Source: Bacteroidota bacterium
Lineage (GTDB): Bacteria; Bacteroidota; Bacteroidia; B-17B0; Aurantibacillaceae
Length of the DNA: 64,000 nt
Assembly (NCBI GenBank): GCA_016185125.1
Contig: JACPOC010000044.1
Span: 1 to 64,000 of the forward strand
Reading direction: 5' to 3'
The notes under the pieces were generated by a model that was given only the letters and a program-made list of their open reading frames with translations, did no database searches and was not told the origin of the DNA. Made by a program: the position numbers and the translations under genes. Positions 20,905 through 26,303 of the stretch are shown in pieces. Position 1 is the stretch's first letter. The number at the start of each line of letters is the position of its first letter.

Positions 20905-20912
20905 TATATTTG
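20905..20912 (+). promoter_or_regulatory. Candidate -7 promoter element (TATATTTG) for the B12 locus
   Basis: TATATTTG matches the Bacteroidota -7 consensus TAnnTTTG exactly and lies about 25 bp before the first conserved base of the riboswitch, where transcription would be expected to begin. No good TTG -33 element is apparent at standard spacing. Confidence 0.45.
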
Positions 20913-20935
20913 CAATGCATTTGGTTCTTTTAATT

Positions 20936-21117
20936 AAGACTAAAAGGGAATAACGTGCAAATCGTTAACAGTTCCCGCTGCTGTAAGTTCTATGTATGTT
21001 TAACCAATCTTTGCCACTGTTGCAACATCTGTGTAGCGGGAAGGCGGTTAATCAGAGAACAAGTCAGAAGACCTGCCACATGCAACATGATCAATGCTTT
21101 CGGGATGTGAAGCGGAG
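20936..21117 (+). ncRNA. Cobalamin riboswitch
   Basis: The region carries the conserved parts of the adenosyl/aquocobalamin riboswitch in the right order: an early GGGAATAACGTGCAA segment, GTTCCCGCTGCTGTAA at about 20970-20985, GCCACTG at about 21013, GGGAAGGCGG at about 21038-21047, and the B12 box AAGTCAGAAGACCTGCC at 21061-21077. It ends in the CGGGATGTGAAGCGGAGAGA tail often seen in Bacteroidota. It lies directly upstream of a TonB receptor, as expected for B12 uptake control. B12 binding should lower expression, most probably by blocking translation initiation, since no clear terminator follows. Confidence 0.95.
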
Positions 21118-21140
21118 AGAATTTTTTTTATTAACTGCAT

Positions 21141-23081
21141 TTGAATTGTATAGTAAATAAATTATGGCGTAATGCTTTTATCATTTTTTTAATGATGAGT
21201 ATTCCTTGCTTTAAAGGTCAGGATACAATTACTTTAAAAGAAGTTGATGTTAAAAGTACCAGAACTACTTTATCAGGTATTGGAAAGAAAACTGAAAGTA
21301 TTGATTCGCTCACAAAACGCCAATTTATCTTTAATTCCTTAGGTGATGTATTAAGTTTGAATACACCCATTTTTATTAAAAATTATGGCCCCGGAAGTCT
21401 TTCAAGTACTTCTTTTAGAGGGGGCAGTGCTTCACAAACAGGAATTATATGGAATGGTTTTAATATACAGAACGGCATGCTTGGGCAGATGGATCTTTCT
21501 TTAATTCCCTCTGTCCTTTTTGATAACATTAGTATAGAATATGGAGGCTCTTCATCTTTATGGGGAAGCGGTGCGGTTGGTGGAAGTATTCATCTTAACA
21601 ATAAACCCTTATTTAGCAAAGGATTCACAACAATAGCCAATATTAGTAAAGGGAGTTATGGTTTATTTAATGCTTCCACTAACATTGAGGTTAGTAACAA
21701 AAAATTTATAAGCAGTACAAAAGCATATCTACAAAATTCGCTGAACAATTTTGTTTATAGAGATACATTGGATAAAATTAACCCTTTACAAACACAAAAA
21801 CACGCGACTTATTCCTTTAAAGGCTTATTGCAGGAGTTTCGTTTTTTACTCACTCAAAAACAATCACTAACGGTTAACGGTTGGTATAACGTGGGAGCCC
21901 GTCAGTTACCTGTATTTAACGCGTTAAATGTTTCCCGGGCCGAACAGTTTGATGCAAACTTTAAAACCACTGCTACTTGGAATTATATAGCGAATAACTT
22001 TCAATCGACAGTGAGAGGCGCTTTTTTTAACGACGCATTAAATTATAGGGACAGTGCTTTTTCAATTGATTCAAAAAGTAAGCTGCAAACCTTTATCGGC
22101 GAAAACGAAAACAATTTTAACTGGAGTAAGAACAATGTTTTTAATTTTGGATTCAACCTTACATCTTACAACGGTAAAACAGATAGTTATGGGGGGGTAA
22201 AAACGTTACAAAAAACTGCTTTTTTTATTGGTAATAAATTCTCATTTCTTAAACAACGATTAATAACTTTTGTTTCCTTACGAGCAGAGTATATCAACAC
22301 CGGTAAATTACCTCTCACGGGAAGTGCTGCCTTCGAATATAAAATCACCAAAACAATTACCGCCAAGTTAAACGGGGCAAAAGTATATCGGCAACCTACT
22401 TTAAATGAACTTTATTGGAAACCGGGCGGCAATCCGGATCTTTTGCCTGAACAAGGTTATACTGTTGAAGGCGATCTGAGCTTTACACATTTGTGGAATA
22501 AAGTTTCCTTTTTTGTATCCGGCGCTGCTTTCTATCGCAACATCAATAATTGGATCCTTTGGTTGCCAGGACAAAATATTACCACTCCTGTTAATATTCA
22601 ACAGGTGCTGAGTCGCGGCACCGAAACAACTTGGCGTTTAAATTATCGGAATAATAAATTTGGCATCAACATTAATACGATAACAGGATATGTATTGTCT
22701 ACCATTCAATCCTCAAAACAAGAAAACGGAAACACTGAAGGCAAACAGCTTATTTATACGCCACGTTATTCTGTTAACGCAAACGTTTCGGTTTCATACG
22801 GTATGGCTAACATAACCTATTATCATCAATATATTGGTTACAGATTTATTTCCAGCGATAATCTTCAATGGCTCACTCCTTATCATTTTTCCAGCGTTAG
22901 ATGTAACATAAAAACCAAACTCGGCGAAACCGCAATTGTTTTATATGCAGCGTGCAACAATGTGTTTAATACTAACTACGCTGTTATTGCCGGAAGACCT
23001 ATGCCTCTGCGAAGTTTTGAAATTGGAGCAACTATAGCCGCAAATAAACCTTATAAACCAAAACAAATAAATATAAAATAA
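21141..23081 (+). CDS. btuB: TonB-dependent outer-membrane receptor, BtuB-like (vitamin B12)
   Basis: The 646-residue protein has a signal peptide (hydrophobic FIIFLMMSIPC, cleaved near KGQ), a plug domain starting at the TLKEVDV TonB-box-like segment and including SFRGGSASQTGIIWNGF and SGAVGGSIHL, and a beta barrel ending in a C-terminal strand with aromatic residues. The cobalamin riboswitch directly upstream identifies the substrate as cobalamin or a related corrinoid. The start seems to be TTG 21141; the internal ATG pair at 21192 would destroy the signal peptide. It is followed 17 bp later by the DUF4465 gene, in one operon. Confidence 0.93.
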   Translation: MNCIVNKLWRNAFIIFLMMSIPCFKGQDTITLKEVDVKSTRTTLSGIGKKTESIDSLTKRQFIFNSLGDVLSLNTPIFIKNYGPGSLSSTSFRGGSASQTGIIWNGFNIQNGMLGQMDLSLIPSVLFDNISIEYGGSSSLWGSGAVGGSIHLNNKPLFSKGFTTIANISKGSYGLFNASTNIEVSNKKFISSTKAYLQNSLNNFVYRDTLDKINPLQTQKHATYSFKGLLQEFRFLLTQKQSLTVNGWYNVGARQLPVFNALNVSRAEQFDANFKTTATWNYIANNFQSTVRGAFFNDALNYRDSAFSIDSKSKLQTFIGENENNFNWSKNNVFNFGFNLTSYNGKTDSYGGVKTLQKTAFFIGNKFSFLKQRLITFVSLRAEYINTGKLPLTGSAAFEYKITKTITAKLNGAKVYRQPTLNELYWKPGGNPDLLPEQGYTVEGDLSFTHLWNKVSFFVSGAAFYRNINNWILWLPGQNITTPVNIQQVLSRGTETTWRLNYRNNKFGININTITGYVLSTIQSSKQENGNTEGKQLIYTPRYSVNANVSVSYGMANITYYHQYIGYRFISSDNLQWLTPYHFSSVRCNIKTKLGETAIVLYAACNNVFNTNYAVIAGRPMPLRSFEIGATIAANKPYKPKQINIK

Positions 23082-23098
23082 CAATAAAAAAACAACCT

Positions 23099-24058
23099 AT
23101 GAAAAAAACAATTACCTTTTTAATGCTTGTGTGCGCAACTTTTAATTTTAAAGCGCAAAGTCAAATCACCACTTTTGAGAGCTTTACCTTAGCTCCTAAT
23201 TCTTTTTATAAAGACACAAATAGTGTGCCTTTTCAAACTGCCGGTATGCTTTTCCGTTATAAATGGGACAAACCTTATGCATATTGGAGCGGAGGTTTTT
23301 CTTATACAAATATAAACGATACAGCTAATGGCAATTTTAGTAACAGTTATAACGCGCGTGCGGGTAAGGGTTACAATAACTCCGCTAAGTATGCCACCGG
23401 TAAAAATAATGCAATAATGGTTTTAAAAGCGCCCTTTAACAGATTAGACGGCTGTTATATTACCAATACTACGTACGCGTATAAATCAATGAAAAACGGA
23501 GATCAGTTCGCTAAAAAATTTGGCGGAACCTCAGGTAATGATCCTGATTTTTTAAAAGTTACCGCTAAAGGATATTTTAACGGAGCGGTTAAAGCGGATA
23601 GTGCTGTATTCTATTTAGCGGATTATCGCTTTGCCAATAACTCACAGGATTACATTGTTCAAAACTGGCTGTGGTTTAACACAACAGCTTTGGGTCAGGT
23701 AGACAGCGTTAAATTTATAATGTATTCAAGCGATAATGGCCAATTTGGAATTAACACGCCAACATTTTTTAGTATTGACGACGTAACAGTTACCAATGCT
23801 TTTGTTGGTATTAATGAAAATACGCTTTCAAACAACCTGACTGTTTATCCAAATCCATTTTCATCAAGTTTGATTTTTAAGACCACTGAAAATTTAAATG
23901 TATCTATTTCAGATGTATACGGTAAAGTAATTACAGAAGTTTTTTTAAATGAGGAAAATAAAGAATTGGATTTAACTTTTCTTGAAGATGGTGTTTATTT
24001 TGCTGAAATAAAAAGCGGTAAATTAAACGTAACTAAAAAGATTATTAAAACTCATTAA
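23099..24058 (+). CDS. DUF4465 protein with T9SS sorting domain (BtuH-like, B12 locus)
   Basis: The 319-residue protein has a signal peptide (CATFNFKAQS), a DUF4465-type domain at about 25-240 (TTFESFTLAPNSFYKD, YWSGGFSYTN, the SNSYNARAGKGYNNS segment, FSIDDVTVTN), and a type A T9SS sorting domain at about 248-319 (YPNPF, DVYGKV, LEDGVYFAEI). Its position between btuB and a BtuG-like gene under a B12 riboswitch suggests a surface cobalamin-binding protein related in role to the BtuH lipoproteins of gut Bacteroides. Here surface display would be by type IX secretion, not by lipidation. Function is inferred from context. Confidence 0.88.
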   Translation: MKKTITFLMLVCATFNFKAQSQITTFESFTLAPNSFYKDTNSVPFQTAGMLFRYKWDKPYAYWSGGFSYTNINDTANGNFSNSYNARAGKGYNNSAKYATGKNNAIMVLKAPFNRLDGCYITNTTYAYKSMKNGDQFAKKFGGTSGNDPDFLKVTAKGYFNGAVKADSAVFYLADYRFANNSQDYIVQNWLWFNTTALGQVDSVKFIMYSSDNGQFGINTPTFFSIDDVTVTNAFVGINENTLSNNLTVYPNPFSSSLIFKTTENLNVSISDVYGKVITEVFLNEENKELDLTFLEDGVYFAEIKSGKLNVTKKIIKTH

Positions 24059-24086
24059 AATTAAGCCGAAACCGAAGTATACCTTT

Positions 24087-25121
24087 ATGTCATATAATCT
24101 TTTTTTTATCGCTGCCTTCAGTTTTCTTTTTTTATCCTGCGTAAAGGATAAGCCTGCTTGCACCGTGCAGCCACAAGTTAAGCTAAGCGGTAATAAAAAG
24201 GTTTACGTTGTTAATGAAGGTAATTTTATGGCAGGTAATGCTTCGGTTTCGCTTTTTGATCCCGGCTCTTCTCAAGTGATTGAAAATTTATATCAATCCC
24301 AAAATCAATCATCATTTTTAGGCGATGTGGCACAAAGTTTATCGCGGTTCAATTCTTCATTCTATGTTGTTGTAAATAATTCAAATAAAATCGTGATCTG
24401 CGATGAACAGTTTAAATTCAAGTCAACCATAAGCGGATTCACTTCGCCACGATATATTCTTCCGGTCAGCAATTCTAAAGCTTACGTAAGCGATTTGTAT
24501 GCCAATAAAATTTACATTGTTAATCTTAATTCAAATACAATTTCAGGATCAATAACTTGCCCGGGATGGACGGAAAATATGGCGCTTGTTTATAATAAAG
24601 TTTTTGTGACTAACAGAAAAAGAAATTATACATACATAATCAATGCTTCCAATGATATAAAGAGTGACAGTATTAATGTTGGTTCCGGAGCCGGTGATAT
24701 TATTGTAGACAAAAATGATAAAATATGGGTTTTAAGTGCCGGAGATAAAACGGCTGCTATTGTACCAACTTTAAAAAAAATAGACCCTTTAACACATCTG
24801 ATAGAAACCAATTTAAATTTTACATTAAACGATTCGCCCGGAAATCTTTGCATTAATAAAACCAAAGACACTTTATATTTATTAAATGGAGGGATTTTTA
24901 AATTAGCCATTACTGCTCTTTCAGTACCTGCTGTTCCATTAATAGAAAAAGGCAATAAAACATTTTACGGGCTTGGTATTAACCCGAATGATTATACAAT
25001 TTACGCATCTGACGCGTTGGATTATATCCAAAAATCAAATATTTATATTTTTGATGCGGCAGGAAATCAGAAACAAATTTTTAAAGCCGGCATAAACGCA
25101 AACAGCTTTTATTTCGAGTAA
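24087..25121 (+). CDS. btuG: Beta-propeller surface lipoprotein, BtuG-like
   Basis: The 344-residue protein starts with a lipoprotein signal (FSFLFLSC, Cys18) and continues with a YncE/DUF5074-like beta-propeller (KVYVVNEGNFMAGNASVSLFD, AYVSDLYANKIYIVN, KVFVTNRKRNYTYIIN, IIVDKNDKIWVLS, IYASDAL). In Bacteroides, BtuG is a surface lipoprotein that caps BtuB and binds cobalamin very tightly. Being third in the operon after btuB and the DUF4465 gene supports the same role. The symbol is given by fold and context; sequence distance to characterised BtuG could not be measured. Confidence 0.8.
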   Translation: MSYNLFFIAAFSFLFLSCVKDKPACTVQPQVKLSGNKKVYVVNEGNFMAGNASVSLFDPGSSQVIENLYQSQNQSSFLGDVAQSLSRFNSSFYVVVNNSNKIVICDEQFKFKSTISGFTSPRYILPVSNSKAYVSDLYANKIYIVNLNSNTISGSITCPGWTENMALVYNKVFVTNRKRNYTYIINASNDIKSDSINVGSGAGDIIVDKNDKIWVLSAGDKTAAIVPTLKKIDPLTHLIETNLNFTLNDSPGNLCINKTKDTLYLLNGGIFKLAITALSVPAVPLIEKGNKTFYGLGINPNDYTIYASDALDYIQKSNIYIFDAAGNQKQIFKAGINANSFYFE

Positions 25122-25181: not shown

Positions 25182-26303
25182 TTGAATAAATGCGTTAATA
25201 TTATTTCGTTCGATGTTCCCTATCCACCAAACTACGGAGGCATTATTGATGTTTATTGGAAACTTTATTGGTTAAATAAGGCGGGCATTCGAATTCACCT
25301 GCATTGTTTTTCATACGGCCGTTTGCCCGCTAAAGAACTGGATGCGCTTTGTGAAAAGGTTTATTATTATCCCCGTAAAACCGGATTACTCTCTAATCTA
25401 TCCTACTTGCCTTACACCGTTAAGTCAAGGCAATCCACGGAAATGGAGAACAATTTATTGGCAAACGATTATCCTATTTTATTTGAAGTACTGCATACCT
25501 GTTATTTATTAAACGATCTTCGCTTTAAAGAGCGAATAAAACTTTACAGGCACAGCAATATTGAGCATGATTATTATAAGCATTTGGCATCTTCCGAAAA
25601 AGACTTCGTTAAAAAAATGTATCTTAAGATTGAAACAAAAAGATTAGAACAGTTTGAAAAAATTATTTCAAATGCCAACTACATTCTTGCCGTTAACGAA
25701 ATAGATTCATTTTATTTCAAACAAAAATACACTAAGCCACAAACCATTTATCTTCCCAGCTTTCATCCTCACAGTAAACCTGAAATTAAGGAAGGCAAAG
25801 GAGATTATATTTTGTACCATGGCAACCTGAGTATTTCAGAAAATTACGAAGCCGCCGACTGGCTGATAGATCATGTGTTTTCTAAAATAAGTGAGAAGGT
25901 AATTATTGCAGGATTAAACCCGCCTACTTTTTTAAAACATAAAATTGAAAAATTTTCTAATATTATTTTAGCTGAAAACCTTTCTGAGGAAGGCATGAAC
26001 GATTTGATTGAAAATGCACAGATTCATTGTCTGCATACGCATCAGGCAACAGGTTTAAAACTTAAACTGCTTAACGTTTTATATAAAGGGCGTTTTATTT
26101 TATGCAATAATCAAATGTTGAAGGGCACAGGGATAGTTGCAGGCAAATCTATTACAATATGCAATACCGACGAGGACTATTGCTCTGCGCTAAAATCACA
26201 GATCAATCTGGCATTTGAAGCATCATTTATTGAAGAAAGAAACCTAATAACAAAACGGTTTAATAATGCGGCAAATGCTGCTGCCCTGGCAGAACTTCTT
26301 TAA
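25182..26303 (+). CDS. Glycosyltransferase, GT-B fold
   Basis: The 373-residue cytoplasmic protein looks like a GT4-type glycosyltransferase. The N-terminal IISFDVPYPPNYGGIIDVYWKL loop is typical of the acceptor side, and the C-terminal domain has the DYILYHGNLSISENYEA start and an HTHQATGLKLKLLNVLYKG donor-site region. It appears to begin at TTG 25182, 60 bp after the btuG-like gene; transcription may continue from the B12 operon or start locally. The last bases overlap the end of the convergent Nramp gene by 4 bp. Donor and acceptor are unknown; a role in surface polysaccharide is plausible. Confidence 0.82.
   Translation: MNKCVNIISFDVPYPPNYGGIIDVYWKLYWLNKAGIRIHLHCFSYGRLPAKELDALCEKVYYYPRKTGLLSNLSYLPYTVKSRQSTEMENNLLANDYPILFEVLHTCYLLNDLRFKERIKLYRHSNIEHDYYKHLASSEKDFVKKMYLKIETKRLEQFEKIISNANYILAVNEIDSFYFKQKYTKPQTIYLPSFHPHSKPEIKEGKGDYILYHGNLSISENYEAADWLIDHVFSKISEKVIIAGLNPPTFLKHKIEKFSNIILAENLSEEGMNDLIENAQIHCLHTHQATGLKLKLLNVLYKGRFILCNNQMLKGTGIVAGKSITICNTDEDYCSALKSQINLAFEASFIEERNLITKRFNNAANAAALAELL

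Follow-up and report, generated by a model that had tools for sequence, protein, structure and literature searches.

A cobalamin riboswitch-led operon of a Bacteroidota bacterium encodes a BtuJ-family protein with a predicted type IX secretion sorting domain

What might explain the presence of a protein with a type IX secretion system (T9SS) sorting domain in a vitamin B12 operon, between the genes for a BtuB-like receptor and a BtuG-like putative lipoprotein? The only Rfam match within the 64-kb stretch of DNA that was analysed (the window) is a cobalamin riboswitch aptamer (RF00174) at 20905..21094 on the plus strand, which in cmscan reaches 105.3 bits with an E-value of 2.5e-25 (gathering score 31.5) and spans the full model, 1-189 of 189. 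Behind it on the same strand lie the genes for a btuB-like TonB-dependent receptor (21141-23081, TTG start, 646 aa), a DUF4465 protein of the BtuJ family with a T9SS type A tail (23099-24058, 319 aa) and a btuG-like beta-propeller protein, a putative lipoprotein (DUF5074; 24087-25121, 344 aa), the gaps from the riboswitch onwards being 46, 17 and 28 nt. Because the gaps are short and all the elements lie on one strand, the riboswitch and the three genes are likely to be transcribed as a single unit. The fold of the riboswitch region is unremarkable (z-score -0.28), and for the expression platform no terminator-like match was found at the site and no element masking the ribosome-binding site could be assigned. 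A further gene (25182-26303) starts 60 nt behind btuG, has no Pfam match and appears glycosyltransferase-like by eye; the closest 13 of the 80 related loci keep it in this position, and it may belong to the same transcript.

The receptor matches PF00593 and PF07715 above the Pfam cut-offs, and its closest solved structures in phmmer searches are the Bacteroides BtuB entries 8p97, 8p98 and 8bmx (E 3e-59 to 1e-56; 3.3e-59 for 8p97). The label BtuB-like reflects these nearest solved relatives, for against the TIGR01779 BtuB equivalog it scores 56 bits, far under the cut-off of 599.7. The third protein scores 78 bits against PF16819, above the Pfam cut-off, and aligns with BtuG (8bmx_D) over aa 38-341 (phmmer E 7e-50). 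Its N-terminus, MSYNLFFIAAFSFLFLSC-VKDK, contains a predicted lipobox, FLSC, read by eye; a lipobox-like motif is present in 47 of the 50 BtuG ORFs of related loci and a T9SS tail in 0 of 50. These homologies, the RF00174 match and the shared strand uphold the sequence-only reading of the locus as a riboswitch-led B12-capture operon on the plus strand, and the lipobox agrees with its proposal that the third protein is a lipoprotein.

The DUF4465 protein begins with a putative Sec signal peptide (MKKTITFLMLVCATFNFKAQ; 23099..23158, plus strand), read from the sequence and lacking a lipobox; Q20 is invariant among relatives. A DUF4465 jelly-roll domain follows at aa 60-229 (23276..23785, plus strand), with a PF14717 score of 150.1 bits against a gathering score of 25. 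The AlphaFold2 model, built from an alignment with 56 relatives, has a mean pLDDT of 93.4 and adopts the augmented beta-jellyroll of BtuJ1, BtuJ2 and D5EK51, which are the solved relatives of the protein. In the fold search it matched 9qpm, 9fct, 9hmu and 9i2l with Z-scores of 28.4, 28.0, 25.6 and 22.2, respectively, the first being the BtuJ1-cyanocobalamin complex (rmsd 1.6, 205 residues). Since the model matches B12-bound BtuJ1, it identifies the DUF4465 protein as a member of the BtuJ family. The protein had been likened to BtuH, a kinship that we rule out: the two profiles are unrelated (hhalign probability 0.1, E 0.73) and the structure comparison points to BtuJ1. No BtuH chain is found among the best 50 fold-search entries listed for the model, which alone proves nothing. 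Taking a fold unrelated to BtuH as evidence against B12 binding, as had been proposed, was ill-posed because BtuJ binds B12 with a fold of its own; the idea of B12 binding survives the wrong BtuH label because BtuJ, too, binds B12.

At the C-terminus of the DUF4465 protein is a T9SS type A sorting domain, aa 249-317 (23843..24049, plus strand), which exceeds the cut-offs of both PF18962 (48.4 bits, cut-off 27, aa 249-316) and TIGR04183 (47.5 bits, cut-off 23). In the AlphaFold2 model, this tail domain superimposes on the T9SS-bound C-terminal domain of NucA (8glk_D) with a Z-score of 11.3 over 72 residues. The host genome encodes SprA (2349 bits), PorU (1253 bits) and PorV (458 bits), and approximately 118 type A tails. 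The claim that the middle protein of the operon ends in a type A sorting domain is borne out by the two profile matches and by the SprA, PorU and PorV of the host, and the DUF4465 protein is a predicted T9SS type A cargo. It is very improbable that the tail scores arose by chance in a periplasmic protein. Although short Ig-like domains can look alike, and DUF3244 structures also align to the tail domain, curated cut-offs are passed in two libraries, PF18962 is present in 56 of the 57 proteins aligned, T9SS-bound C-terminal domains are among the best fold matches, and the genome has a T9SS.

Would this copy bind B12? In the phmmer alignment with BtuJ1, the pocket residues Trp78, Tyr146, Asn241 and Thr242 are conserved as W63, Y126, N219 and T220, and the same map places F80 and F223 at the positions of Tyr97 and Tyr245. 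The HI loop, N-T-P-T-F-F at aa 219-224 (23753..23770, plus strand), aligns to NTPSYF of 9fct and satisfies the N-T-P-x-aromatic pattern (N219, T220, P221, T222, F223). The HI-loop tyrosine has been termed universal in DUF4465 (PMC12751083), or present at 97% (PMC13398666). Among 57 aligned proteins, the window's own included, N219, T220 and P221 are invariant, and at the position of BtuJ1 Tyr245 31 have Phe and 26 have Tyr, so that the tyrosine rule is not universal among T9SS-tailed proteins. The protein could have come to bind a different corrinoid, or to bind only weakly, the two Tyr to Phe replacements having removed pocket hydroxyls: Tyr245 of BtuJ1 takes part in hydrogen bonding to cobalamin (PMC12751083), and the Phe and Tyr forms are clustered, with at least 9 changes on a quick tree versus 19 in shuffles. 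We nevertheless consider such drift unlikely, in that the N-T-P motif and an aromatic residue are retained without exception and the operon context is much alike for the Phe and Tyr forms. B12 binding has been shown for eight diverse DUF4465 proteins, and the Fluviicola protein "Fluta" binds B12 (PMC13398666). By analogy with these proteins, we infer that the window's DUF4465 copy binds B12, and F223 and F80 together may alter affinity or specificity.

How widespread is this arrangement? A scan of a genome collection yielded at least 559 relatives, and 80 loci were retained from these. The DUF4465 domain and the tail lie in one frame in 79 of the 80, the remaining one being cut by a contig end, a figure that overstates the tail frequency because the query included the tail and biased the set. 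A B12 box is found on the DUF4465 coding strand in 72 of these loci and on the opposite strand in none, an association that exceeds chance, and Rfam confirmed the riboswitch at all 10 of the related loci tested. A BtuB match is present in 67 loci, a BtuG match in 50, and both in 48. Within the window's GTDB family, DUF4465 occurs in 80 of 87 genomes; in a draw across the phylum, 11 of 395 genomes have it, 9 of them over the family's cut-off. The tail is present in all 30 of the loci examined from the GTDB family; in a sample of another order, 71 genomes encode tailed DUF4465 and approximately 25 encode lipoprotein forms. Tandem fusions of two DUF4465 domains were also observed (L075, L079, L103, L121, L144, L147, L150, L159, L162, L192 and L214), as were DUF4465 domains within very long frames of about 2200-3000 aa (L135, L137, L139, L143 and L186), which are possibly multi-domain surface proteins.

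The distribution of the tail was compared with that of the T9SS in 79 classified genomes. SprA is encoded in 41 of the 43 genomes with tailed DUF4465, the two that lack a full SprA match being 82% (G605) and 94% (G729) complete. The SprA-negative genomes that are at least 99% complete number six (G316, G324, G591, G604, G690 and G701), and each of them has tail-less DUF4465 only. A strict rule by which tail type follows T9SS presence is only half true and was rejected (Fisher p 0.07), lipoprotein forms being found also in many SprA-positive genomes. The T9SS permits a tail on DUF4465 and does not impose one.

Is a T9SS-tailed corrinoid-binding protein new? The sequence-only reading took it for an undescribed variant, which is not borne out. 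Among 824 IPR027828 (DUF4465) sequences, 229 carry IPR026444, the T9SS sorting domain, 88 carry IPR013424 and 275 have a lipoprotein signal; these three features do not co-occur, and the family was proposed to be mainly extracellular (PMC12751083). The lipoprotein count is at odds with PMC13398666, in which more than 70% of DUF4465 members are lipoproteins. With 229 tailed sequences already published, T9SS-tailed DUF4465 is a known class, and the window locus belongs to a class that is widespread and had been noticed before. Our literature search found nothing linking the T9SS to B12 uptake beyond PMC12751083.

A second T9SS cargo, encoded outside the window, is a more interesting lead than the window locus. 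This other type A-tailed protein, of approximately 325 aa, is encoded near DUF4465 in 40 of the 80 related loci; its gene is missing from the window's operon. The only other cobalamin riboswitch of the host genome (G000:C22:135044-135170) lies directly upstream of a copy (riboswitch and gene together at L124:4045-5222). Of the 87 genomes in the window's GTDB family, 80 have this protein, one of them as a weak match only. Within the window's genus, all copies in the 20 loci compared carry the tail, with an Rfam riboswitch upstream in 11 and none in the other 9; most of the nine riboswitch-less genes follow a small Cys-rich ORF. The congeners in which the second cargo stands behind such an ORF, with no riboswitch detectable, are L249, L251, L252, L253, L255, L256, L257 and L259. 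The ORF has the pattern CxRCGxEFTCKP...CDCM, and an ORF resembling it, also Cys-rich, follows btuG at another locus (L065, 10008-10337). In seven loci (L089, L141, L145, L179, L195, L199 and L243), DUF4465, the second-cargo domain and the T9SS tail are fused.

What, then, is the second cargo? Its first 245 residues have no Pfam family above cut-off, a PDB profile search returned the sorting domain as the sole confident match, and the AlphaFold model (pLDDT 49.8) is too low in confidence to use. The second-cargo profile does, however, pick up the BtuH domain of lipoproteins that their own PDB matches identify as BtuH2 or BtuGH (7biz, E 5e-105; 8blw, E 1e-82). An hhalign comparison with the BtuH B12-binding domain gave a probability of 93.9, an E-value of 1.6e-7 and 40% identity over only 50 columns. 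Within that stretch, the positions of BtuH2 Asn399 and Phe401, which are published cobalamin contacts (PMC8941943), are invariant in 13 aligned second-cargo sequences. The profile match and the two invariant residues make a divergent BtuH-type B12 domain our best guess for the second cargo.

The host plausibly needs B12, since four PF02310 domains over cut-off are encoded in its genome, including in frames of 1239 aa and 722 aa, lengths that would suit MetH and methylmalonyl-CoA mutase. We consider it likely that the window contains a B12-repressed corrinoid-capture operon with a lipid-anchored BtuG on BtuB and a T9SS-exported BtuJ as catcher. When cobalamin is scarce, the riboswitch would permit expression of btuB, btuJ and btuG. 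The DUF4465/BtuJ protein would leave the cell via Sec and the type IX system by means of its type A tail, catch B12 at the surface or just outside, and pass the cobalamin to BtuG-BtuB. Lipid-anchored BtuG would cap BtuB as in Bacteroides and receive the corrinoid, which BtuB would import. The tailed BtuJ would thus do what a lipoprotein BtuJ does in gut Bacteroides, with a different route of export. Because the one other cobalamin riboswitch of the host stands before a gene for a T9SS-tailed protein whose core resembles BtuH, two kinds of catcher, one of the BtuJ type and this cargo, are probably exported.

Where the exported BtuJ would reside is a separate question. Type A T9SS cargo is often sugar-anchored in other species, and once released the protein would become a public good, in an operon that also encodes a surface BtuG-BtuB pair. 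Both points weigh against release after tail cleavage, by which the protein would become a soluble, siderophore-like B12 scavenger away from the cell, comparable with BtuJ on Bacteroides vesicles. Such release is possible, if somewhat doubtful: the DUF4465 protein has no lipobox, the genome has the PorU sortase, which cleaves type A tails, and Bacteroides BtuJ acts at a distance on vesicles (PMC12751083).

Viewed more broadly, the locus and its many relatives point to type IX secretion, and not to surface lipoproteins, as the means by which many Bacteroidota put their B12 catchers outside the cell. We regard as evenly poised the wider proposition that the cobalamin riboswitch regulon of T9SS-bearing Bacteroidota exports BtuJ and a Pfam-less BtuH-type module, sometimes fused, with BtuG lipid-anchored. 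If it is true, the T9SS supplies a two-component extracellular B12-capture layer, with lipoproteins in its stead where the T9SS is absent. The second cargo family offers a concrete, testable candidate for a further B12-binding domain. The published rule of a "universal" tyrosine is qualified by how often the position is Phe. To our knowledge, competition for B12 outside the gut has been little studied.

The arrangement is reminiscent of the BtuB-BtuG complexes of gut Bacteroides (PMC10404256; PDB 8p98, 8bmx), in which a receptor and a propeller lipoprotein are likewise encoded together; unlike in those systems, a T9SS-tailed gene stands between the btuB-like and btuG-like genes of the window. 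BtuH2 (PDB 7biz, PMC8941943) is an accessory B12-binding surface protein of the same operon kind that has no profile kinship with the window's DUF4465 protein and whose core motif, including Asn399 and Phe401, is common to the second cargo family. The T9SS-tailed subset of IPR027828, already noted as an extracellular targeting class, has the same two-domain architecture as the window protein; the passages of PMC12751083 consulted here treat it through domain counts alone, with the operon, riboswitch, BtuG anchoring and second cargo undiscussed there. Closest to the window protein are BtuJ1 and BtuJ2 of Bacteroides thetaiotaomicron (BT_1491 and BT_1957; PMC12751083), which share its DUF4465 jelly-roll and are encoded, like it, with a cobalamin riboswitch and btuB- and btuG-type genes. 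However, the HI loop of BtuJ1 has Tyr245 where the window protein has Phe223, and BtuJ1 and BtuJ2 are vesicle-associated lipoproteins, whereas the window protein combines a Sec-type signal with a T9SS type A tail.
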